Both the position numbers and the translations under genes were made by a program. The notes beneath the pieces are model-generated. The model was not told the origin of the DNA. It made no database searches and saw only the letters and a program-made list of their open reading frames with translations. From Oscillatoriales cyanobacterium (lineage in GTDB: Bacteria; Cyanobacteriota; Cyanobacteriia; Cyanobacteriales; Laspinemataceae), in assembly GCA_011390955.1 (NCBI GenBank), contig JAABRM010000046.1, positions 1 through 58,490 of the forward strand: a DNA stretch of 58,490 bases. Reading direction: 5' to 3'. Positions 20,136 through 30,752 of this stretch are shown here, piece by piece. Position 1 is the first letter of the stretch; each line of letters opens with the position of its first letter.

Positions 20136-20164
20136 TTGACAATCTGTTAATAAATGGATAAAAT
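20136..20164 (+). promoter_or_regulatory. consensus promoter of RNA element copy 1
   Basis: TTGACA (20136-20141), 17-base spacer, TAAAAT (20159-20164). The same promoter precedes the other two copies of the element. Transcription should begin about 20171. Confidence 0.7.
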
Positions 20165-20170
20165 ATAATT

Positions 20171-20360
20171 ATCAAAATAATTCAGGTTTATTCGGGCCGG
20201 AAAAACATCCAACAAGCCCAAACGATACCTGGGAGTACCCGGCCCGGAGTGGCGAAAAAATAAGAGCAAAAAGCCCCTACGCTCTCCGGGCCAGGTAAAA
20301 TCCCTAACTCCCCGGCCAAACTCACAAGGGGGAGCCCCGGTGAGGGGCTTCCTCCTGCCC
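20171..20360 (+). ncRNA. candidate structured RNA element, copy 1
   Basis: A ~190-base GC-rich element with no sensible reading frame, directly after a consensus promoter. It has three copies (20171, 23013, 29663) that keep sequence nearly intact while surrounding DNA differs. Visible stems: CGGGCCGG (20193-20200) with CCGGCCCG (20239-20246); GGCCCGGAG (20241-20249) with CTCCGGGCC (20284-20292); GGAGCCCC (20331-20338) with GGGGCTTCC (20344-20352). The first two share bases and exclude each other, as in a switch. A DUF29 gene lies 400 bases downstream. Could be a free small RNA, a leader, an omega/HEARO-type RNA, or a mobile element core; not identified. Confidence 0.55.
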
Positions 20361-20371
20361 AGAAATACCCA

Positions 20372-20540
20372 GAAACCGGGTTTATGCATCGGCAGATCAC
20401 AGTTATCTTTGGGACACACAAAAGAAACCCGGTTTCTTAGTCCTCGCAGCTAACCCAGAAACCCCAGAAACCGGGTTTATGCATCCGCAGATCACAGTTA
20501 TCTTTGGGACACACAAAAGAAACCCGGTTTCTGGGTCTCC
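20372..20540. repeat. AGAAACCGGGTTTCT palindrome array, block 1
   Basis: Four copies of the 15-mer core in alternating orientation, with shared intervening words (TGCATC, GCAGATCACAGTTATCTTTG). The intervening text is nearly the same in both halves (20383-20430 and 20468-20522), so the ~86-bp unit is duplicated. After it, 20620-20660 holds a GTTGGGTT...AACCCAAC hairpin. No gene between 19979 and 20763. Confidence 0.85.
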
Positions 20541-20763
20541 ACTCCCTATTTTGCTTTCTTGTCTATTATGGAATATGTTAGACTGATATAGTGTTTTCAA
20601 ATAAAAATGATACATTATTCTGTAGGTTGGGTTGAGGAACGAAACCCAACATTAGAATCCTTACAGGAAATAAACCGGTTTTTTTCACATATAGCGATCT
20701 CCAATAGCTGGAGAAATCTTACTTGAAATAACTATATATAGAAAAGAAAGGGAGTCAAAATAA

Positions 20764-21255
20764 ATGACAGCTATCCAATCAATCACAACGGCAACAACAT
20801 CCCTTTATGAACAAGATTTTTATCTGTGGTTACAGACAAATATCAACTTATTAAAAGAGGGAAATTTTGCCGAAATCGATTTGGAAAACTTAGTTGAAGA
20901 ACTGGAAAGTATGGGGAGAAGCGATAAAAATGCTTTAAAAAGTAATTTGAAAATACTTTTAATGCACTTACTCAAGTATAAATATCAGAATAAAAAGCGC
21001 ACAAATAGTTGGCTTTACACGATTCGAGAACATCGTCAACGCCTCCGAGATACTTTCAAAACCAGTCCGAGTTTATCTCGTTTTTTTGTAGATATTTTTA
21101 ATGAATCCTATCAAGATGCGAGAGAACTAGCCGCCGATGAAACGGGTTTATCCATCCAGATATTTCCCCCAGAGTCTCCCTTTAGTAAAGAAGAAGTGCT
21201 TAACCCTGATTTTTTACCGACTGATGAGGGTTCAGAAACCGGGTTTCTGTCGTGA
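20764..21255 (+). CDS. DUF29 family protein, copy A
   Basis: A 163-residue DUF29 protein, a family common in cyanobacteria and of unknown function. Typical features are YEQDFYLWLQTNINLLKEG, the DLENLVEELESMG block and LLMHLLKYKYQ. A good Shine-Dalgarno (AAAGGGAG) precedes the ATG. It is a close paralogue of the gene at 23379, including the leader. The last residues (GSETGFLS) and stop lie in the AGAAACCGGGTTTCT repeat, so the repeat now forms the C-terminus. Confidence 0.9.
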   Translation: MTAIQSITTATTSLYEQDFYLWLQTNINLLKEGNFAEIDLENLVEELESMGRSDKNALKSNLKILLMHLLKYKYQNKKRTNSWLYTIREHRQRLRDTFKTSPSLSRFFVDIFNESYQDARELAADETGLSIQIFPPESPFSKEEVLNPDFLPTDEGSETGFLS

Positions 21256-21421
21256 AAATAAAGAAACCCGGTTTCTATAAGTCCTCGCAGATAACCGAGA
21301 AACCGGGTTTCTGTTGTGAAAATTACAGTTATCTGTTTTAAGCAAACAAGAAACCCGGTTTCTTAGTCCTCCGCACCCCTGCCCCTCCGCACCCCTGCCC
21401 CTCCGCACCCCTGCCCCTCTG
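21234..21421. repeat. palindrome array block 2 and CCTCCGCACCCCTGCC tandem repeat
   Basis: Four alternating AGAAACCGGGTTTCT / AGAAACCCGGTTTCT cores from 21234 to about 21364, the first inside the 3' end of the DUF29 gene. Three copies of a CCTCCGCACCCCTGCCC unit follow (21369-21421). The rest to 21489 has no clear promoter. Confidence 0.8.
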
Positions 21422-21489
21422 CTTGTGTACATTAATAGGGGTAGCAATGCCCATCCTACTTTTACTGTTACTTTTACTTCACCTGAAGA

Positions 21490-22320
21490 ATGCAAAACAA
21501 AATTCACTTTATATCTGGTTTACCGCGATCGGGTTCCACCTTACTCGGTGCCATTCTCCGGCAAAATCCCCGATTTCATGCGGGAATGACTAGCCCCGTA
21601 GGAGGATTAGTCGAGCAAATGCTGGCAGCAATGAGCGATCAAAACGAATATTCCGTATTCATATCCGAGGAACAGAAACGGCAACTGATCCACAGCATAT
21701 TTAACACTTACTATCAGCCGCAAGCGGACAAAGCCGTGATTTTTGATACCAATCGCCTGTGGTGTGCGAAATTAAGCTTAATTAACGAACTATTTCCCGA
21801 AGCTAAAATTATCTGCTGTGTCAGAAATATCGCCTGGGTGATGGACAGCATCGAAAGACTAATTCGCCGCAACGCCTTTGACGTTTCTCGCCTATTTAAT
21901 AATCTGGGAGAAAGGGCTACCGTATATAGTCGAACAGAAGCCCTAAGTCAGGGCGGCAGATTAGTTGGATTTGCCTACAGTGCTGTCAAAGAAGCATTTT
22001 ACAGCGAAAATAGCCATAAACTACTCATAGTTGATTACGACCTCTTGGCCAAAGGGCCCCAGCAAACCATCTCCTTAATTTATCAATTTCTTGGGGAAAC
22101 ACCGTTCAACCACGACTTTGAAAATATCGAATACGACGAGCCGGAATTTGACCTAAATCTCAATACCAAAGGACTGCATAAAGTGCGGCAAAAAGTAGCC
22201 TTTCAACCGAGACAAACCATATTACCGCCGGATTTGTTTGAACGCTACAACAGTTTATCTTTTTGGGAACAACCCAGCCCCACCAGGGCTAACTTAATTG
22301 TTGCCAAACCGAAGAATTAG
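21490..22320 (+). CDS. sulfotransferase family protein
   Basis: A 276-residue protein of the bacterial sulfotransferase family, which moves the sulfuryl group of PAPS to a hydroxyl or amine. The 5'-phosphosulfate loop FISGLPRSGSTLLGAIL is at residues 7-23. The conserved CVRNIAWVMDSIERLIRR block near residues 113-130 fits the 3'-phosphate binding region. The acceptor is not predictable; it may be a glycan or peptide. It is isolated between repeat blocks. A copy of its first 18 bases after a similar leader is found at 20039. Confidence 0.85.
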   Translation: MQNKIHFISGLPRSGSTLLGAILRQNPRFHAGMTSPVGGLVEQMLAAMSDQNEYSVFISEEQKRQLIHSIFNTYYQPQADKAVIFDTNRLWCAKLSLINELFPEAKIICCVRNIAWVMDSIERLIRRNAFDVSRLFNNLGERATVYSRTEALSQGGRLVGFAYSAVKEAFYSENSHKLLIVDYDLLAKGPQQTISLIYQFLGETPFNHDFENIEYDEPEFDLNLNTKGLHKVRQKVAFQPRQTILPPDLFERYNSLSFWEQPSPTRANLIVAKPKN

Positions 22321-22358
22321 CGAAGGTTTTAAAATTCAATAACTCAGAAAAATAAAGT

Positions 22359-22625
22359 ATTGGCAGCGGATAGATGAGGGATTGGCAGCGGATATTGGCA
22401 GCGGATAGATGAGGGATTGGCAGCGGATATTGGCAGCGGATAGATGAGGGATTGGCAGCGGATATTGGCAGCGGATAGATGAGGGATTGGCAGCGGATAT
22501 TGGCAGCGGATAGATGAGGGATTGGCAGCGGATATTGGCAGCGGATAGATGAGGGATTGGCAGCGGATATTGGCAGCGGATAGATGAGGGATTGGCAGCG
22601 GATATTGGCAGCGGATAGATGAGGG
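22359..22625. repeat. 35-bp tandem array with TTGGCAGCGGAT cores
   Basis: A 35-base unit made of two ATTGGCAGCGGAT cores around AGATGAGGG. AGATGAGGG recurs eight times at exact 35-base steps (22372 to 22617), giving about 7.6 units. 35 is not a multiple of three, so the minus-strand open frame crossing it is not a gene. Related array at 28930-29021. Confidence 0.95.
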
Positions 22626-22650
22626 ACAAAAGAATTATCTCATACAGAAA

Positions 22651-22880
22651 ATAGTCAGCCCATCCGCTGCCAACCACTATCCAAAAATCAAATAGTCAGC
22701 CTATCCGCTGCCAACCACTATCCAAAAATCAAATAGTCAGCCCATCCGCTGCCAACCACTATCCAAAAATCAAATAGTCAGCCCATCCGCTGCCAACCAC
22801 TATCCAAAAATCAAATAGTCAGCCCATCCGCTGCCAACCACTATCCAAAACTCAAATAGTCAGCCTATCCGCTGCCAATT
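22651..22880. repeat. 41-bp tandem array with ATCCGCTGCCAA cores
   Basis: Six units starting ATAGTCAGCC at exact 41-base steps (22651, 22692, 22733, 22774, 22815, 22856), each containing ATCCGCTGCCAA, the reverse complement of the core in the preceding array. The two arrays thus face each other across a 25-base spacer (ACAAAAGAATTATCTCATAC then AGAAA). Related array at 29037-29530. Confidence 0.95.
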
Positions 22881-22884
22881 TTCT

Positions 22885-22955
22885 GTGGTGCGTTACGGCT
22901 GGAATTAAGGTTAATTGTTGTCTCGAAAGTTAATGGCCAGCCTAACACACCCTAC
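22885..22955. repeat. 71-bp palindromic element, copy 1
   Basis: Starts GTGGTGCGTTACGGCTGG and ends CCAGCCTAACACACCCTAC, whose ends pair imperfectly. Copies at 29154-29224 and 29533-29603 differ by few bases. In two of three cases the RNA-element promoter follows within 30 bases. Confidence 0.85.
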
Positions 22956-22977
22956 CTAAAATTATCTCTAAAAAAGC

Positions 22978-23006
22978 TTGACAAATTGTTAATAAATGGA
23001 TAAAAT
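22978..23006 (+). promoter_or_regulatory. consensus promoter of RNA element copy 2
   Basis: TTGACA (22978-22983), 17 bases, TAAAAT (23001-23006). Confidence 0.7.
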
Positions 23007-23012
23007 ATAAGT

Positions 23013-23202
23013 ATCAAAATAATTCAGGTTTATTGGGGCCGGAAAAACATCCAACAAGCCCAAACGATACCTGGGACTACCCGGCCCGGAGTAGCTCAAA
23101 AAGTAAGAGCAAAAAGCCCCTACGCTCTCCGGGCCAGGTAAAATCCCTAACTCGTTTCCAAACTCACAAGGGGGAACCCCGGTGAGGGGCTTCCTCCTGC
23201 CC
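23013..23202 (+). ncRNA. candidate structured RNA element, copy 2
   Basis: Second copy, differing from copy 1 at a small number of bases (for example GGGGCCGG in place of CGGGCCGG, CTACCCGG in place of GTACCCGG, and GGAACCCC in place of GGAGCCCC in the 3' hairpin). The conserved GGCCCGGAG and CTCCGGGCC segments are intact. A DUF29 gene begins 177 bases after its 3' end. Confidence 0.55.
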
Positions 23203-23212
23203 AGAAATACCT

Positions 23213-23335
23213 AGAAACCGGGTTAACAAGCGAGAAACCGGGTTGCTGTGGTGAAAATTACGATTATCTGTGGGATACAAACAAGAAACCCGGTTTCTGA
23301 GTCCTTGGTGGGGGCACAGAAACCGGGTTTATGCA
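23213..23335. repeat. palindrome array block 3
   Basis: Four AGAAACCGGG-type cores, two of them degenerate (ending GGGTTA and GGGTTGC), between the RNA element and the second DUF29 gene. Confidence 0.8.
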
Positions 23336-23378
23336 TCGGGAAATCTATCATAGAAGAAAAGAAAGGGAGTCAAAATAA

Positions 23379-23870
23379 ATGACAGCAGTCCAATCAATCA
23401 CAACGGCAACAACATCCCTTTATGAACAAGATTTTTATCTGTGGCTACAGACAAATATCAACTTATTAAAAGAGGGAAATTTTGCCGAAGTAGATTTAGA
23501 AAACTTGCTTGAGGAATTGGAAAGTATGGGGAAAAGCGATAAAAATGCTTTAAAAAGTAATCTGCGGATACTCCTCATGCACTTACTCAAGTATAAATAT
23601 CAGCCGGAAAAGCGAACAAACAGTTGGCAATACACTATTATAGAACATCGGATTCGCATCGAGGATACTTTCAAAACCAGTCCGAGTTTATATCGTTTTT
23701 TTGAAGATATTTTTAATGAATCCTATCAATATGCCAGGAAACTAGCCGCTGGTGAAACGGGTTTATCCATCCAGATATTTCCCTCAGAGTCTCCCTTTAG
23801 TAAAGAAGAAGTGCTTAACCCTGATTTTTTACCGGCTGATGAGGGTTCAGAAACCGGGTTTCTGTGGTGA
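23379..23870 (+). CDS. DUF29 family protein, copy B
   Basis: A 163-residue DUF29 protein, nearly the same as the one at 20764 with scattered substitutions (LLEELESMGKS for LVEELESMGRS, YTIIEHRIRIEDTF for YTIREHRQRLRDTF). The leader with AAAGGGAG is also the same. The tail GSETGFLW and stop lie in the AGAAACCGGGTTTCT repeat. The duplicated unit therefore includes RNA element, palindromes and DUF29 gene. Confidence 0.9.
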   Translation: MTAVQSITTATTSLYEQDFYLWLQTNINLLKEGNFAEVDLENLLEELESMGKSDKNALKSNLRILLMHLLKYKYQPEKRTNSWQYTIIEHRIRIEDTFKTSPSLYRFFEDIFNESYQYARKLAAGETGLSIQIFPSESPFSKEEVLNPDFLPADEGSETGFLW

Positions 23871-24146
23871 GAGAAACCCGGTTTCTTAGTCTAAGCAGAT
23901 AACCTCAGAAACCGGGTTTCTTTTCGGGATATCACAGATAACTCTAGGATGCACAAAAGAAACCCGGTTTCTTGGTCTAAGCAACTAACCCAGAAACCGG
24001 GTTTCTTTTCGGCATATTAAAAGTTATCTGTAATTTGCACCACAGAAACCCGGTTTCTTAGTCTAAGCAGATAACCGCAGAAACCGGGATCCGCTGTGGT
24101 GAAAAGTACGGTGATCTGTAGGAAGCATAAAAGAAACCCGGTTTCT
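23849..24146. repeat. palindrome array block 4 (~86-bp units)
   Basis: Forward cores at 23849, 23907, 23992, 24079 and reverse cores at 23872, 23958, 24044, 24132. From 23907 on, the spacing is 85-88 bases for both, so this is a tandem array of an inverted-repeat unit. Spacers carry GTTATCTG and GCAGATAAC words that are also complementary. It and a short ATCCGCTGCC pair (24189-24220) fill the 550-bp gap before the RTX gene. Confidence 0.9.
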
Positions 24147-24479
24147 TAGTCTTGGAAACGCGAATCGCTATTTCAAAATAAAATAGAATGCCCTATCCGC
24201 TGCCCCATCCGCTGCCCACTTAAATTAACACAACTTAACAATTAAACCTTGTAATAATCACTTAACAATCTGCTAAAATCCACCCAGGCAACCAGACAGC
24301 CGCGAAATTTTCCCTCCCATCCCTGCCATTAACGACCTGACTTCAATCGGCGTCGAATCTAACAGGGACATCAGGCAGCAATAATTAATTTGTCGTAAAT
24401 ATAATTAATCAGAGGCATCATCATGTCCACAATCAATCTCACCACTAACGCCAACTCTCCACAAACCGAATATGGCGCC

Positions 24480-24513
24480 GGCGCCCCTGTGTACTAAAGT
24501 ACACAGGGGCGCC
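24480..24513. repeat. perfect palindrome 1 in the adhesin gene
   Basis: Arms GGCGCCCCTGTGTACT and AGTACACAGGGGCGCC, 16 bp, with the loop AA. The T of the left arm and the loop make the in-frame TAA. A GGGGCGC / GCGCCCC hairpin of similar style is at 30372-30395. Confidence 0.9.
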
Positions 24514-27500
24514 GTGAGTTAGTCATCATTGACCCCACGGTATCCGACTATCAAAGCCTCATCGCCCAAATCAAACCCAACACCGAAGTCCACATCCTCG
24601 ACCCCCACCGCGACGGCATCACCCAAATCACCGAAATCGTCACCAACCCTACACCCCACACCCTACACCCTACACCCCTCCACTCCCTCCACATCATCTC
24701 CCACGGCGCCCCCGGAACCCTGTACCTGGGCAACAGCATCCTCAACAGCGAAACCCTACAAACTCGCTACCACAAAGCCATCCAACAATGGCGTCATGCC
24801 CTGGCAGAAAATGCCCACATCCTTATATATAGTTGTAACGTCGCTGCCTCTGAGGGGCAAGCAGAGGCGCATTGCCCTTACAGTTCCCACACCCCAAACC
24901 CTACACCCCTACTCCAAAAACTACACCAACTCACCGTCGCCCATATTTCGGCTTCGAGTACCCCTGTAGGTCACGCCAGCAAAGGCGGAAACTGGAATTT
25001 AGACTACAGTACAGACAACTGCAAACCCGCCTTGGCATTTTTCCCCGAAGTCATAGCCAGCTATCAGGGAATCTTTGGTGATGGCCCTGGAGGTGTCGGC
25101 AGCACTGACGGCACCTCCAGTCTAAAATGGTGGGTCAAAGCTGATGCCGGAACCAGTACAACCACCAACAATACTGGCATTCAAACTTGGACAGATCAAT
25201 CAGGAAACAGCCTTGATGCTACCCAAGGGACTGCGACCAATCAGCCAACCTACTTAACCAATCAAATTAATGGCCTACCTGTTTTAAGTTTTGACAGTAC
25301 CGATGACCTTCTCTCCACGGGCACTCTTCCTGCGGATTTTGCTACCACCGATGTCTCGATGTATATTGTTGCGCTGACAGATGCGGCTGAAAATACTTCA
25401 CCAATCGTGGCAAATCCTGACAATACCAGTAGCCGATTTAATATTCATATTCCTTGGGGTGATAACCTGATTTATTTCGATCACGGGGACATATCGTCTG
25501 GAGGTCGTCTAACAACAAATTTCGGCACTTTAGGCCAGTTCCAAACCTATCATTTTCAAACGATATCGGGAACTGAGCAAAGAATCTATCAAGACGGTTC
25601 ACAATTAGCTACTGATGCTAACGCCAGTTCGTTCGATCCTACTGGAAAAATTCTGGATATTGGCTTTTATAGTAGCACAGGAACTTATTGGGGTGGAGAC
25701 ATCGCCGAGGTCCTGGTTTACAATAGTGCTCTCAATACTGCCGAACGCATCATTGTCGATAACTACCTCAGCGCCAAATATAACCTAACGACAGCAACCG
25801 ACAACTATGCCGGAGATACCGCAGCAAATGGCGACTATGATTTCAATGTCGCAGGCATTGGCCAAGAAACTGACGGCAACAGCACCACTGCGACATCCGT
25901 CGATCTGATTATTGCCAACAATAGCTATCTGCTAGACGATGGCGACTACCTACTACTTGGTCACAACCAAGCTACCAATTCTACAGTCACCACCGATATC
26001 CCCACGGGCACGGATAACCGCTGGAACCGAGTTTGGTATCTGGATAAAACTGATGCAGCCGGAACCACGGGTGGCACGGTTGATTTCACCTTTGACTTCT
26101 CCACTGAGTTGGGGGCAACTCCCAGCGGCAACTATGGATTACTGTATCGCACAGGCACCACGGGCAATTTTGCCTTTGTCACCACGCCCACAGCCACCAT
26201 TAGTGGCAACCAAGTAGTATTCACTGGTGTCGATACCACCAATATCAGCGACGGTTACTATACTTTAGTTTCTGACACCACCACTCCAACCTTATCTTCA
26301 GTCAGCATTGTTTCCGATAATGCTGACACGACCTTAGCTAAAGTTGGCGATACCGTCACACTCACATTTACTGCCTCTGAAGAGTTACAAGCCGATCCTA
26401 CTGTCACCATTGGGGGTCAAACCGCTACCGTCACTAATACCAGTGGCAATACTTACACCGCCACTTATACCCTGCAAAGCAGCGACACCGAAGGAACTGT
26501 TGCGTTTAATGTTGCCTTCACTGATTTTGTGGGCAATGCGGGAACTGCCGTCACCGCAACTACTGACTCAACCACTGTCACCTTTGACAAAACAGTGCCA
26601 ACCTTATCTTCAGTCAGCATTGCTTCCAATAATGCTGACACGACTTTGGCCAAAGTTGGCGATACTGTAACGGCTACCTTTACCGCCAGTGAAACCCTCA
26701 GTGGCACTCCCACTGTCACCATTGGTGGTCAAACTGCCACTGTCACCAATACCAGTGGCAATACTTACACCGCAACTTATACTCTGACTAGCGCCGATAC
26801 CGAAGGGTCGCAAGCAATCAGTATTGATTTAACAGGTGTCACTGATGCTGCGGGCAATGCGGGAACTGCCGTCACCGCAACTACTGACTCAACCACTGTC
26901 ACCTTTGACAAAACAGTGCCAACGGTGAATCTAACTACTGATGCTGCGGATACAGTCAATGCGGCCTTTACAGTAACGGCCACCTTCGATGAAGATGTCA
27001 CCGGCTTTGCATTAGCCGATATTACCGTAGGCAACGGGACGGCCAGTAACTTCTCAGCAGTTAGTACCACGGAATATACTTTTGATGTCACTCCCACCGC
27101 TGATGGTTCCGTAACGGTGGATGTTGCTGCTTCTTCAGCAACGGATGATGCTGGGAATAATAATAGTGTCGCAACTCAGTTAACCCGAACAGCGGATATC
27201 ACTGCCCCAGATGCACCAACTATCAGCACAACGGGTACAACCAACGATAATACTCCCGACATTAACGGGACTGCCGAAGCGGGAAGTACCGTAGCGATTT
27301 TAGTTGATGGCGCAGAAATCGGTACGACTACTGCTGATGCTGACGGCAACTGGACATTTACCCCAACTACAGAGTTAACCGATGGCACGTATAACTTAAC
27401 TGCCACGGCAACCGATACTGCGGGAAATACTTCCACCGCTTCTAGTGAAAGTAGCTTAACTGTAGATGCGACTGCCCCAGATGCACCAACTATCAGCACA

Positions 27501-27590
27501 ACGGGTACAACCAACGATAATACTCCCGACATTGACGGGACTGCCGAAGCGGGAAGTACCGTCACCTTATTCCAAAATGGAATAAGGTGA
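24498..27590 (+). CDS. adhesin fragment: DUF4347 through Ig-like repeats
   Basis: The phase is open from just after palindrome 1 to the TGA in palindrome 2. No ATG, GTG or TTG occurs in phase until TTG 25032, so if the first break is real, most of the DUF4347 domain would be untranslated. Part of the DUF4347 domain (24650-24690) is encoded by CCCTACA-type repeats (PTPHTLHPTPL), which look like a repeat insertion kept in phase. Confidence 0.7.
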   Translation, partial: STQGRRELVIIDPTVSDYQSLIAQIKPNTEVHILDPHRDGITQITEIVTNPTPHTLHPTPLHSLHIISHGAPGTLYLGNSILNSETLQTRYHKAIQQWRHALAENAHILIYSCNVAASEGQAEAHCPYSSHTPNPTPLLQKLHQLTVAHISASSTPVGHASKGGNWNLDYSTDNCKPALAFFPEVIASYQGIFGDGPGGVGSTDGTSSLKWWVKADAGTSTTTNNTGIQTWTDQSGNSLDATQGTATNQPTYLTNQINGLPVLSFDSTDDLLSTGTLPADFATTDVSMYIVALTDAAENTSPIVANPDNTSSRFNIHIPWGDNLIYFDHGDISSGGRLTTNFGTLGQFQTYHFQTISGTEQRIYQDGSQLATDANASSFDPTGKILDIGFYSSTGTYWGGDIAEVLVYNSALNTAERIIVDNYLSAKYNLTTATDNYAGDTAANGDYDFNVAGIGQETDGNSTTATSVDLIIANNSYLLDDGDYLLLGHNQATNSTVTTDIPTGTDNRWNRVWYLDKTDAAGTTGGTVDFTFDFSTELGATPSGNYGLLYRTGTTGNFAFVTTPTATISGNQVVFTGVDTTNISDGYYTLVSDTTTPTLSSVSIVSDNADTTLAKVGDTVTLTFTASEELQADPTVTIGGQTATVTNTSGNTYTATYTLQSSDTEGTVAFNVAFTDFVGNAGTAVTATTDSTTVTFDKTVPTLSSVSIASNNADTTLAKVGDTVTATFTASETLSGTPTVTIGGQTATVTNTSGNTYTATYTLTSADTEGSQAISIDLTGVTDAAGNAGTAVTATTDSTTVTFDKTVPTVNLTTDAADTVNAAFTVTATFDEDVTGFALADITVGNGTASNFSAVSTTEYTFDVTPTADGSVTVDVAASSATDDAGNNNSVATQLTRTADITAPDAPTISTTGTTNDNTPDINGTAEAGSTVAILVDGAEIGTTTADADGNWTFTPTTELTDGTYNLTATATDTAGNTSTASSESSLTVDATAPDAPTISTTGTTNDNTPDIDGTAEAGSTVTLFQNGIR

Positions 27591-27596
27591 CGGTAC
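27556..27596. repeat. perfect palindrome 2 in the adhesin gene
   Basis: Arms GTACCGTCACCTTATTCCA and TGGAATAAGGTGACGGTAC, 19 bp, loop AAA. The sister repeat upstream (around 27280-27330) has no palindrome at this place, so the right arm has replaced normal coding sequence. Confidence 0.9.
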
Positions 27597-28794
27597 GACT
27601 ACTGCTGATACTGACGGCAACTGGACATTTACTCCAACTACAGAGTTAACCGATGGCACGTATAACTTAACTGCCACGGCAACCGATACTGCGGGAAATA
27701 CTTCCACCGCTTCTAGTGAAAGTAGCTTAACTGTAGATACGGCTATTGTTGACACTGGTGTAATACCTGTGGCCCCGGCCCCAACCAGTGAAATTCCCCC
27801 ATTCACCAGCTTGAGTGATGTTCTGGCATCGGATGACACCAGTGATAACCAGACTGACAACACCTCTTTACCCGTACCGCCACCAATTCCGCCTTTCTCC
27901 ACGGTAGATTTAGCCAATATCGCCTTTACTGCCGTCGGAACAGAAAGTGCAGATAATATCGATGGCCAACAAAGCGATGATGTAATTAGTGCTTTGGGTA
28001 GCAATGACTTCATCCGAGGTCTGGAAGGTAATGATGCCCTATTTGGTAACGAAGGCAATGATGAACTTTACGGCAACCAAGGGGCAGACTTGCTCAATGG
28101 CAACGAAGGGAATGACATTATATATAGTGGCCAAGGGAATGATATTGCTTTCGGTGGTCAAGACAACGACCTGATGTATGGCGACCTTGGCAGCGATTCT
28201 CTGTCTGGTGACTTGGGTGATGATAGCCTGTTTGGTGGCCCATCAAATCCCGATTTAGTTTCTGGTGATGCTGGTGATTTGCTGTTGGGTGGTGATGGCA
28301 ATGATTACCTCCAAGGCAATGTCGGTAATGACTCGATTTCCGGTGGAACGGGTAATGATATCGCCTATGGTGGTCAAGGCAATGACCTGATTCATGGCGA
28401 TGCAGGTGCCGATATTTTATATGGCGATAAGGGCAATGATAGCCTAACCGGGAATGCGGATAATGATGTGGTTTATGGTGGTGAAGGTGATGATTATCTC
28501 TGGGGAGAATCGGGGGATGACTTCCTTTATGGCGATGCCGGTAATGATACTTTAATTGGTAACGATGGCACCGACTATTTTGCGATTCAAACCAGTTTTG
28601 GTTCTGATACAGTTCTGGACTTTATTGATGGAACTGACCTGATTGGTTTAGCCGGTGGTCTGACTTTTGCCGATTTGAGTATTACCGGCAGTAATGGTAA
28701 TACCTTGATTTCCAGTAATAATGAATTGCTGGCGACTTTGACTGGTGTTGATGTTGGTTTGATTACTAGCACTGACTTTACTGTGTTGGTGTAA
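27586..28794 (+). CDS. adhesin fragment: last Ig-like repeat and RTX C-terminus
   Basis: After palindrome 2 the homologous sequence continues in the next phase (GTTTADTDGNWTFTP) and stays open to the stop at 28792. About ten RTX nonapeptide blocks (GGNDxLxG style, e.g. LFGNEGNDELYGNQGADLLN) precede a C-terminal domain ending GLITSTDFTVLV, typical of type I secretion substrates. The first methionine-type start is GTG 27769, so independent expression is possible but not indicated. Confidence 0.7.
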   Translation, partial: GDGTTTADTDGNWTFTPTTELTDGTYNLTATATDTAGNTSTASSESSLTVDTAIVDTGVIPVAPAPTSEIPPFTSLSDVLASDDTSDNQTDNTSLPVPPPIPPFSTVDLANIAFTAVGTESADNIDGQQSDDVISALGSNDFIRGLEGNDALFGNEGNDELYGNQGADLLNGNEGNDIIYSGQGNDIAFGGQDNDLMYGDLGSDSLSGDLGDDSLFGGPSNPDLVSGDAGDLLLGGDGNDYLQGNVGNDSISGGTGNDIAYGGQGNDLIHGDAGADILYGDKGNDSLTGNADNDVVYGGEGDDYLWGESGDDFLYGDAGNDTLIGNDGTDYFAIQTSFGSDTVLDFIDGTDLIGLAGGLTFADLSITGSNGNTLISSNNELLATLTGVDVGLITSTDFTVLV

Positions 28795-28929
28795 TTTATT
28801 CCTAGGGTGGGCAAAATTTGCCCACCTGTCCTTTGTGCCAATGGGGGTAAAACTAAACCAATTTCGGCACAAAGACCACGAAGAATATCTCTTTGTGTCC
28901 GGCAGAGTTCTGTGGTAAAATTATCTCTA
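28795..28929. repeat. TGGGCAAA hairpin and CTTTGTG boilerplate after the adhesin
   Basis: A hairpin TGGGCAAAATTTGCCCA (28807-28823) follows the stop and could terminate transcription. Then comes the GGCACAAAGACCACGAAGAA boilerplate shared with 20066, ending AAAATTATCTCTAA, the same sequence that lies just before the promoters of RNA elements 1 and 2. Confidence 0.7.
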
Positions 28930-29021
28930 ATTGGCAGCGGATAGATCACGGATTGGCAGCGGATAGATAACGGATATTGGCAACGGATAGATAACGGATT
29001 GGCAGCGGATAGATAACGGAT
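28930..29021. repeat. TTGGCAGCGGAT array, locus 3
   Basis: Four cores of TTGGCAGCGGAT (one with GCAACGG) separated by AGATAACGG or AGATCACGG, a shorter relative of the array at 22359-22625. It is followed by the same AAAAGAATTATCTCATACAG spacer. Confidence 0.85.
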
Positions 29022-29036
29022 AAAAGAATTATCTCA

Positions 29037-29530
29037 TACAGAAAACAGTCAACCCATCCGCTGCCAATTATCTTATGCAGAAAACAGCCAACCCATCCGC
29101 TGCCAACCACTATTATCAAATAAAATAGTCACCCCATCCGCTGCCAATTATCTGTGGTGCGTTACGGCTGGAATTAAGGTTAATTGTTGTCCCCAAAGTT
29201 AATGGCCAGCCTAACACACCCTACACCTCTTACCCTGAGCTTGCCGAAGGGCTACACCCTACACTTATCCGCTGCCAACTACTATTCTCAAATAAAATAG
29301 TCACCCCATCCGCTGCCAACTACTATTCTCAAATAAAATAAAAAAGCCCATCCGCTGCCAACTATCTCATACAGAAAACAGAAGAGCCCATCCGCTGCCA
29401 ACCACTATTCTCAAATAAAATAAAAAAGCCCATCCGCTGCCAACTACTATTCTCAAATAAAATAGTCACCCCATCCGCTGCCAACTACTATTATCAAATA
29501 AAATAAAAGGGTTTATCCGCTGCCAATTAT
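29037..29530. repeat. ATCCGCTGCCAA array, locus 3, with two 71-bp palindromic elements
   Basis: About ten ATCCGCTGCCAA cores with spacers built from ACTATTCTCAAATAAAATA or ATCTCATACAGAAAACAG. The unit length drifts (about 39-43 bases), unlike the regular array at 22651. The 71-bp elements at 29154-29224 and 29533-29603 bound the second half, and CCCTGAGCTTGCCGAAGGG (29231-29249) is inserted between. Confidence 0.85.
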
Positions 29531-29627
29531 CTGTGGTGCGTTACGGCTGGAATTAAGGTTAATTGTTGTCCCCAAAATTAATGGCCAGCCTAACACACCC
29601 TACGAATAAAATTTGCTCAAAAAATGC

Positions 29628-29656
29628 TTGACAATTTGCCAATAAACTAATAAGAT
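29628..29656 (+). promoter_or_regulatory. consensus promoter of RNA element copy 3
   Basis: TTGACA (29628-29633), 17 bases, TAAGAT (29651-29656). The spacer sequence has diverged from copies 1 and 2 while the boxes and distance are kept. Confidence 0.7.
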
Positions 29657-29662
29657 ATATTC

Positions 29663-29856
29663 ATCGAAAGACTAATTCAGGTTTATTCGGGCCGGAAAAA
29701 CATCCAACAAGCCCAAACGATACCTGGGACTACCTGGCCCGGAGTAGCGAAAAAAGTAAGAGCAAAAAGCCCCTACGCTCTCCGGGCCAGGTAAAATCCC
29801 TAACTCGTTTCCAAACTCACTTCGGGGAGCCCCGGTGAGGGGCTTCCTCTTGCCTA
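29663..29856 (+). ncRNA. candidate structured RNA element, copy 3
   Basis: Third copy. A C-to-U change (CTACCTGG instead of CTACCCGG) turns a mismatch into a pair in the longer stem ACCTGGCCCGGAG with CTCCGGGCCAGGT, while the competing stem keeps a G-U. The hairpin region CACAAGGGGGAGCC is changed to CACTTCGGGGAGCC. No DUF29 gene follows; the next gene is an antitoxin with its own promoter. So the element is not tied to DUF29. Confidence 0.55.
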
Positions 29857-29990
29857 GAAATACCTAGAAACCGAGTTTCTTTTCGGGATATTGCAGTTAT
29901 CTGTTTTAAGCAGAAAAGAAACCCGGTTTCTTTTCTTTGTATCCTTTGTGTATTTGTGGTGAAAAATCCCAATTTTTTTCTCAAATACTA

Positions 29991-30019
29991 TTGACAAACG
30001 CCAAAATTTACTTTAAAAT
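29991..30019 (+). promoter_or_regulatory. promoter of the Phd-type antitoxin gene
   Basis: TTGACA (29991-29996), 17 bases, TAAAAT (30014-30019), start of transcription near 30026 and a leader of about 73 bases. Two AGAAACC cores (29869, 29917) and a CTTTGTG boilerplate lie between RNA element 3 and this promoter. Confidence 0.7.
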
Positions 30020-30098
30020 AGTCTTGTTATTGTCGGAAAGTGTGCCGACATATATATAACTGAGGCGAATCGCTCCATCTCCCATCCCGGAATCAACA

Positions 30099-30323
30099 AT
30101 GCAGAAAGTTGACATTACCCAAGCAACAACTCAGATTTCTTCTTGGCTGAACTCGGCTCTAAATGGTGAGGAAATTATCATTACTCAAAACAATCAGCCG
30201 ATTTTAAAACTGAGCCAGTTTCCCCCTGCGACAAAAAAAAGGCAACGGGGCAGCGCCAAAGGTCAAATTTGGATATCTCCAGATTTTGATGAACCCTTAG
30301 AAGATTTTCAGGAGTATATGTAG
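30099..30323 (+). CDS. Phd/YefM-type antitoxin
   Basis: A 74-residue antitoxin of the Phd/YefM fold (QATTQISSWLNSALNGEEIIITQNNQPILKL). The N-terminal part binds operator DNA and represses the operon; the C-terminal part (EPLEDFQEYM) would wrap the toxin. A toxin start overlaps its stop (TAGTG) but breaks off after 24 codons, so the antitoxin is probably orphaned. Confidence 0.85.
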   Translation: MQKVDITQATTQISSWLNSALNGEEIIITQNNQPILKLSQFPPATKKRQRGSAKGQIWISPDFDEPLEDFQEYM

Positions 30324-30397
30324 TGAAACTCCTCATAGATATAATTATTTCACCTAAGATTAATACAAATGTAGGGGCGCAATGCTTGCGCCCCTGA
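30323..30397 (+). pseudogene. truncated PIN-toxin remnant
   Basis: GTG at 30323 overlaps the antitoxin stop; the frame reads VKLLIDIIISPKIN, like the first strand of VapC/PIN toxins (MKLLLDT...), then runs into a GGGGCGC/GCGCCCC hairpin repeat (30372-30395) and stops. The rest of the PIN domain is missing. Confidence 0.5.
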
Positions 30398-30462
30398 TGC
30401 CTTGTATCAAGCACAATTGAAACAAGTGATTAGTGCGGATATTATCGGTAGTTGTCAATCCC

Positions 30463-30752
30463 AGAAACCGGGTTTCTCTCGTGAAAATTACAGTTATCTG
30501 TGGGTGGCATAAAAGAAACCCGGTTTCTAAGTCCTTGGTGGGGGTTCAGAAACCGGGTTTCTACTGTGGATATCAAAAGTTATCTGTTTTAGGCAAATAA
30601 GAAACCCGGTTTCTAAGTCCTTGGTGGGGGTTCAGAAACCGGGTTTCTACTGTGGATATCAAAAGTTATCTGTGGGATACAAACAAGAAACCCGGTTTCT
30701 TAGTCTTGGGAAGCAAAAAAGAAACCGGGTTTCTTGAAGAAACCCGGTTTCT
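30463..30752. repeat. palindrome array block 5
   Basis: Forward cores at 30463, 30549, 30634, 30720 and reverse cores at 30514, 30600, 30686, 30738, again a period of 85-86 bases; the last pair has shrunk to a tight hairpin with loop TGA just downstream of the fba stop codon, where it could terminate fba transcripts. The array and the preceding hairpin fill the 455-bp gap between antitoxin and fba. Confidence 0.9.

Follow-up and report, generated by a model that had tools for sequence, protein, structure and literature searches.

The window analysed here, a stretch of 58,490 nucleotides from an Oscillatoriales cyanobacterium, contains three near-identical GC-rich elements and raises the question of whether they are RNA genes, mobile repeats or parts of the genes beside them. 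The original prediction took the element for a structured RNA with a promoter of its own that matches no known RNA. This assignment was borne out by negative Rfam scans, covariation, a wobble bias, conservation between genomes and homologues in a second genus, and we regard it as almost certain that the element represents a constrained, structured and strand-specific RNA gene family. The existence of the family, its fold, its constraint and its promoter box are established at the level of sequence. The RNA may further be a stand-alone, multi-copy and trans-acting small RNA with a common scaffold and paralogue-specific tips, a reading to which we give an even chance.

Table 1 Features of the three element copies in the window
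Feature	Position	Strand	Details
Copy 1 promoter	20136..20164	+	-35 TTGACA 20136-20141, 17-nt spacer, -10 TAAAAT 20159-20164
Copy 1 RNA, modelled part	20180..20360	+	181 nt; cmsearch R1 193.9 bits
Copy 1 helices	P1 20194-20197/20216-20219; P3 rod 20231-20249/20284-20304; P4 hairpin ~20329-20353	+	
REP-like palindromic repeat directly 3' of copy 1 RNA	20371..20437	+	AGAAACC-type arms
Copy 2 promoter	22978..23006	+	TTGACA-17-TAAAAT
Copy 2 RNA	23022..23202	+	181 nt; cmsearch R1 220.3 bits; rod 3' arm from 23127
REP-like palindromic repeat directly 3' of copy 2 RNA	23212..23298	+	
Copy 3 promoter	29628..29656	+	TTGACA-17-TAAGAT
Copy 3 RNA	29675..29855	+	181 nt; cmsearch R1 222.3 bits
REP-like palindromic repeat directly 3' of copy 3 RNA	29866..29931	+	

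The three promoter-bearing elements were confirmed at the predicted positions (Table 1). Over promoter and RNA, copies 1 and 2 are 92.5% identical, copies 1 and 3 86.6% and copies 2 and 3 88.3%, and the RNA segment starts 44-47 nt past the first base of TTGACA. According to the pair tables, copy 1 has lost most of helix P2 (4/6 pairs gone), a loss found also in the copy C108 of the same genome. Copy 2 has intact P1, P2 and rod pairs with one P4 pair broken, and copy 3 has all 42 modelled pairs intact, with U-A in place of a C-A mismatch in the rod. The flanks had been described as different, which stood only in part: in copies 2 and 3 the similarity extends about 380 bp further upstream through repeats. 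Long tandem repeats with GGCAGCGGAT or its complement precede these two copies (window 22380-22880 and 29300-29510). As predicted, no reading frame is common to the copies, a 50-codon TTG-start frame of copy 2 being missing in copies 1 and 3; since none is common to the groups of the family either, a protein-coding element was rejected.

A covariance model built from 21 copies (R1) detected 15 full-length copies in the genome of the window (G000) and seven and nine in its congeners G001 and G002, together with one remnant per genome. Five further R1 matches at E 0.06-0.85 were put down to chance or, once, to a copy's opposite strand. Each genome has a single copy of each of three old paralogues, A, B and C, which hold their places across all three genomes. 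In the aligned sample their mean identity was 55.7-66.0% among themselves and 63.3-69.5% towards six young copies, which shared 91.0% with each other. The copies C27 and 3795 were rejected as orthologues, being identical at 176/180 positions yet without common flanking genes, and concerted evolution of the young copies was dropped since C40a and 6455 share one flank only. The remnants (G000:C53:131437-131577; G001:C72:41-187; G002:C1:3518162-3518308) retain P1, and the promoter where the contig reaches that far, followed by purine-rich GAAAGA-type repeats; the G000 remnant still has the usual 3' end.

Homologues in a second genus, which belongs to another family, were found with a balanced model from 13 copies (R2). 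Two genomes hold three and two copies (E 1e-14 to 1e-16; R1 scores of 63-84 bits), which retain P1, P2, the rod, the linker and P4 with a T-run. Three of them (L180, L181, L182) are flanked on both sides by the word TGACCACACCC, in the manner of direct repeats. Across 388 genomes of the order, R2 found copies in five, the three congeners and the two of the second genus, and class-wide draws of 388 genomes matched G000 only; these searches scored 6-7 candidates per genome under strict filters in a drawn part of the order or class, so that their absences are weak, and one class-wide genome list included neither the congeners nor the two second-genus genomes. Among 14 genomes of the window's own family, convincing matches were confined to the three congeners. 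Weak R2 matches (E 0.0015-0.86) in G005, G007, G008 and G009 of the same family and in G025 of another family were rejected; none of the five has a full rod when aligned, and the four viewed with their flanks resemble gene parts by eye. A DNA search of 59 relatives gave matches in G000, G001 and G002, and in two other genera over 25-27 nt only; the short stretch matched in G036 resembles coding sequence by eye. The literature listings searched showed no description of the RNA family, one of the searches giving only an unrelated LINE-1 paper, and in the passages of PMC5460452 consulted the words 'non-coding' and 'ncRNA' are absent.

In the modelled fold, P1 is a short hairpin at the 5' end and P2-P3 form a long rod capped by a variable apical tip; a single-stranded linker rich in C and A then leads to the hairpin P4. 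Copy 1 has an MFE of -72.6, and the folding z-scores were -3.45 for copy 1, -4.93 for A and -3.79 for the copy 1767. The rod contains a near-invariant GGCCCGGA/UCCGGGYC segment and a C-A mismatch that is mostly retained. P2 occurs as AACGA/UCGUU, AGCUA/UAGCU, AGCAU/AUGCU and AGCGA/UCGCU, the segment after the rod base shows an A-U to G-C change, and in P4 both sides changed in five of ten pairs. The rod base is GGGA/UCCC or AGGG/CCCU, with an indel that leaves the register ambiguous, and P1 (GGGC/GCCC) varies only from C-G to U-G, which is little informative. In the apical region of A, B and the second-genus copies (L047, L049, L179-L183), the word GGGUUAA or GGGUCAA precedes an A-rich stretch; the word is missing in the young copies.

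The fold was supported by paired substitutions in larger alignments of related genomes. In an alignment of 18 sequences from two genera (A8), 15/42 pairs had changed on both sides, in 65 cells, compared with 1-4 pairs and 2-14 cells in slid controls; neither pairs nor cells were reached by any of 500 shuffles, and the number of further pair types was equalled by 125/500. An alignment of 26 sequences (A3) likewise had both-side changes in 15/42 pairs; A3 and A8 were fitted to the model and are thus biased towards its fold. In the unfitted alignment A6 (MAFFT only, 13 sequences), 5/27 pairs had changed on both sides, in 24 cells, with 0-1 pairs and 0-2 cells in the slid controls. Cells and score were reached by 0/500 shuffles, the count of changed pairs by 46/500, and further pair types were not above the shuffles (498/500 reach). 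Given the MAFFT alignment A7, RNAalifold found P1, P2 and the rod without guidance (22 pairs, three of them changed on both sides, covariation term -1.68). G-U cells numbered 54 against 11 A-C cells, which favours an RNA read from the promoter strand. Two finer claims about the fold did not survive. A stem CGGGCCGG:CCGGCCCG had been proposed to compete with another stem for the same bases; it forms 8/8 pairs in copies 1 and 3 and 7/8 in copy 2, but only 6/8 in the young copy 6455 and 4-6/8 in each of the 12 sequences tested from old paralogues, the 1767 type and the second genus, and a competing-stem switch was rejected because the partner strand is unconserved. The rod pair thought to be restored in copy 3 is instead derived, since A, B, C and the second genus all have C-A there.

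Between G000 and G002 the RNAs of the old paralogues have hardly changed (A 202/204, B 197/200, C 199/200; 598/604 in total), that is, by 1-3 bases per RNA, and the tips vary between groups. Fourfold sites of eight nearby gene pairs were identical at 1007/1145 positions compared with these 598/604 (p 8e-20). Identity for A, B and C, respectively, was 76.7%, 35.0% and 25.0% over the first 60 nt beyond the RNA, 76%, 45% and 82% from -200 to -60 upstream, and 98%, 78% and 96% in the promoter stretch; some farther flanks equal the RNA in conservation (A, +200 to +350, 149/150). Copy 2 and the G002 copy 809 agree at 171/181 positions, lower than A, B and C.

On the plus strand between 20000 and 30100, four promoter-like sites match 10 or 11 of 12 positions; three are the promoters of the copies and the fourth, at 29991, lies outside any copy. 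Because the count of all promoter-like sites in this interval is not enriched (21 compared with 18.1 in shuffles), the case for the promoter rests on conservation and not on the site scan. TTGACA is exact in 24/24 full copies of G000 and G002, and a -10 box with at most two mismatches follows at 17 nt in 23/24, the copy 6455 being best at 16 nt. The G001 copies lie outside this 24-copy table; 4/7 of them match the TTGACA-to-P1 pattern. The second genus has TTGACA in 4/5 copies, with TATACT or TATATT at 18 nt in those four, and CAGACA in the fifth. The -35 box is identical in representatives of six groups with spacers averaging 35% identity, and the -10 hexamer is weakly conserved (47% between groups at 17 spacing). 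Within the 25 nt that follow the RNA, five consecutive T are present in 5/24 full copies from the two genomes G000 and G002 (A and C in each, B in G002), in 0/18 young copies and not in B of G000; a T-run also follows P4 in B of G001 and in 5/5 second-genus copies.

In both genera the young copies are surrounded by repeats, as expected of a mobile element. This keeps alive the reading of the element as a non-autonomous mobile repeat that makes RNA (MITE-, REP- or transposon-RNA-like), with a promoter and fold serving its own spread and not host regulation. We consider this rival serious, if on balance unlikely. It would account for 15, 7 and 9 full copies in three genomes and for the near-identical pair C27/3795 without shared flanking genes. 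In 21 of the 60 longest pairwise matches the left boundary recurs 56-76 nt ahead of the RNA, the remainder extending into other repeats or true orthologous flanks, and second-genus copies have flanks in common as well. A REP-like palindrome starts within 30 nt after 16/18 young copies, compared with 512/51522 sampled positions; 809 and C40a have degenerate forms of it. A repeat island surrounds copy 3; the corresponding interval of G002, from an RTX gene (77% identical) to an aldolase gene, measures only about 160 bp, a single comparison in repeat-rich sequence that is not clean. Against this rival, A, B and C are held in place at 98.5-99.5% identity and have no palindrome, and neither a clean empty site nor a target duplication was found. 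The 55 proteins scanned near copies included no TnpB or IscB; the only transposase-like matches among them were the Rpn-type genes next to A and to C, plus a single DDE transposase some 1 kb away from one copy of the second genus. Phage (43) and plasmid (4) records gave short matches only, covering at most 20% of the query among the matches listed and mostly in the AT-rich promoter part, and viral contigs gave no exact pattern match. The REP-like palindrome AGAAACC[CG]GGTTTCT has 38 matches with at most one mismatch in the window (20371-30752 and elsewhere) compared with 0.01 expected, and its clusters occur without the RNA too.

The small-RNA reading has to accommodate further observations that speak against it: the P2 losses in copy 1 and C108, the three remnants, the patchy spread, and neighbours of young copies that are not obviously random. 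In the subset of neighbours scanned, RTX-repeat genes lie near 7/18 young copies (W3, 3795, 4729, 3511, C18, C54, C59) and Uma2 genes near three (C40b, C18, C54). In many of these cases the RTX-repeat (HemolysinCabind) gene precedes the RNA in the same orientation (window 27769-28794; L072, L074, L075, L079, L080, L081). Both readings, small RNA and mobile element, may be true together.

A partnership with Rpn-type PD-(D/E)XK nucleases, which the RNA would regulate or guide while all other copies are spin-offs, appears very improbable. PDDEXK_2 genes adjoin A and C in G000, G001 and G002, out of only three Rpn-like nuclease genes in the 7.2 Mb of G002 and five in G000; A precedes its gene by 135 bp in G002 and by 237 bp in G000, RNA and gene sharing one strand, and C is divergent. 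At G000:C9:3107-5115, two tandem Rpn-like genes (97% identical) stand beside C, where G002 has one PDDEXK_2 match. The nucleases beside A and C are, however, 75% identical paralogues and may thus reflect one old linkage. The three Rpn genes away from A and C gave no convincing RNA match (best 12.6 bits, E 0.034), nor did the 17 of 30 Rpn loci that were searched (best 10.8 bits; 12 also with R1, best 9.4 bits), and a linkage outside the genus was rejected because no RNA was found at those loci. No Rpn gene was among the scanned neighbours of B, of the young copies or of those in the second genus; the association was seen only at A and C.

That the element is a cis-acting mRNA leader of the downstream gene is extremely unlikely. 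A DUF29 gene follows copy 1, copy 2 and the G002 copy 809, and an Rpn gene follows A, but the downstream genes vary by copy, several are on the other strand, and the RNA ends in a hairpin. Copy 1 and its DUF29 gene are extra in G000; the DUF29 stretches of copies 1 and 2 are 96.9% and 90.9% identical to that of G002, so that either copy may be the original. Least credible of all is a structured DNA repeat without RNA product, which would suit the dispersed, palindrome-rich surroundings but neither the strand-specific wobble bias nor the conserved -35 box.

In the small-RNA reading, transcription, targets and a partner are what we infer from these features. Each element would be a stand-alone non-coding RNA gene of about 180-210 nt, with transcription starting at a sigma-70-type promoter of its own and stopping at the 3' hairpin P4; in young copies, which have no T-run, the following palindrome may end transcription. 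The lack of a gene common to all copies among the 55 proteins scanned, the own promoter box and the terminator-like end argue for action in trans. The near-invariant rod suggests a protein or tertiary contact, and the common scaffold would probably be protein-bound. Tips that differ between paralogues and hold between genomes point to separate targets; tip and linker would pair with target RNAs in trans, and paralogues would act on different ones. That such RNAs form a novel kind of ribonucleoprotein particle in filamentous cyanobacteria, with a rigid scaffold, exchangeable tips for different targets, many copies and two old ones beside Rpn nucleases, is an improbable extension. If transcribed, the element would be an RNA family without Rfam entry, which changes far more slowly than fourfold sites and reaches up to 15 copies per genome. 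It would open to study the spread and divergence of multi-copy small RNAs in bacteria, and the question of whether a change of tip retargets a shared scaffold. The combination of promoter box and covariation can tell a gene family from a mere repeat.

With regard to known systems, the statement that the element is not RNase P, tmRNA, 6S or SRP RNA agrees with the covariance scans. Models of 6S, RNase P, tmRNA, SRP and HEARO RNAs are included in the Rfam library, and Rfam 15 at gathering threshold reported only tRNA in the whole window. At E up to 5, 33 matches at four loci did not overlap the element, five further loci gave no match at gathering, and no HEARO model matched. HEARO/omega RNAs of IscB and TnpB elements are structured and dispersed; the present element differs from them in lacking an Rfam match and a TnpB/IscB-type protein among the 55 scanned, and in having its own promoter box and terminator-like end. 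A likeness to REP/MITE-type palindromic repeats lies in the REP-like palindrome at which most young copies end; A, B and C do without this palindrome, which also occurs without the RNA.

Yfr1, in the parts of its description consulted, is an RNA of 54-69 nt with two stem-loops, an unpaired ACUCCUCACAC and a single-stranded C/A-rich stretch before a terminator-like hairpin (PMC2190773). The element resembles this description in its C/A-rich linker followed by a terminator-like hairpin. Its modelled copies measure 178-212 nt as opposed to the 54-69 nt given there, and ACUCCUCACAC occurs in 0/29 copies; identity with Yfr1 was rejected on both motif and length. Yfr2 RNAs are shorter than the element. 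In the excerpt available, they are described as small stand-alone RNA genes with several copies per genome at unconserved loci (PMC6778093). The element is likewise multi-copy at loci that are not conserved, and differs in its lack of an Rfam match, its long GC-rich rod and its occurrence in two genera, whereas Yfr2 is near-universal. The Rfam scans gave no sign of membership of Yfr2, and the multi-copy Yfr2 small RNAs are the known system which the element appears to resemble most closely.
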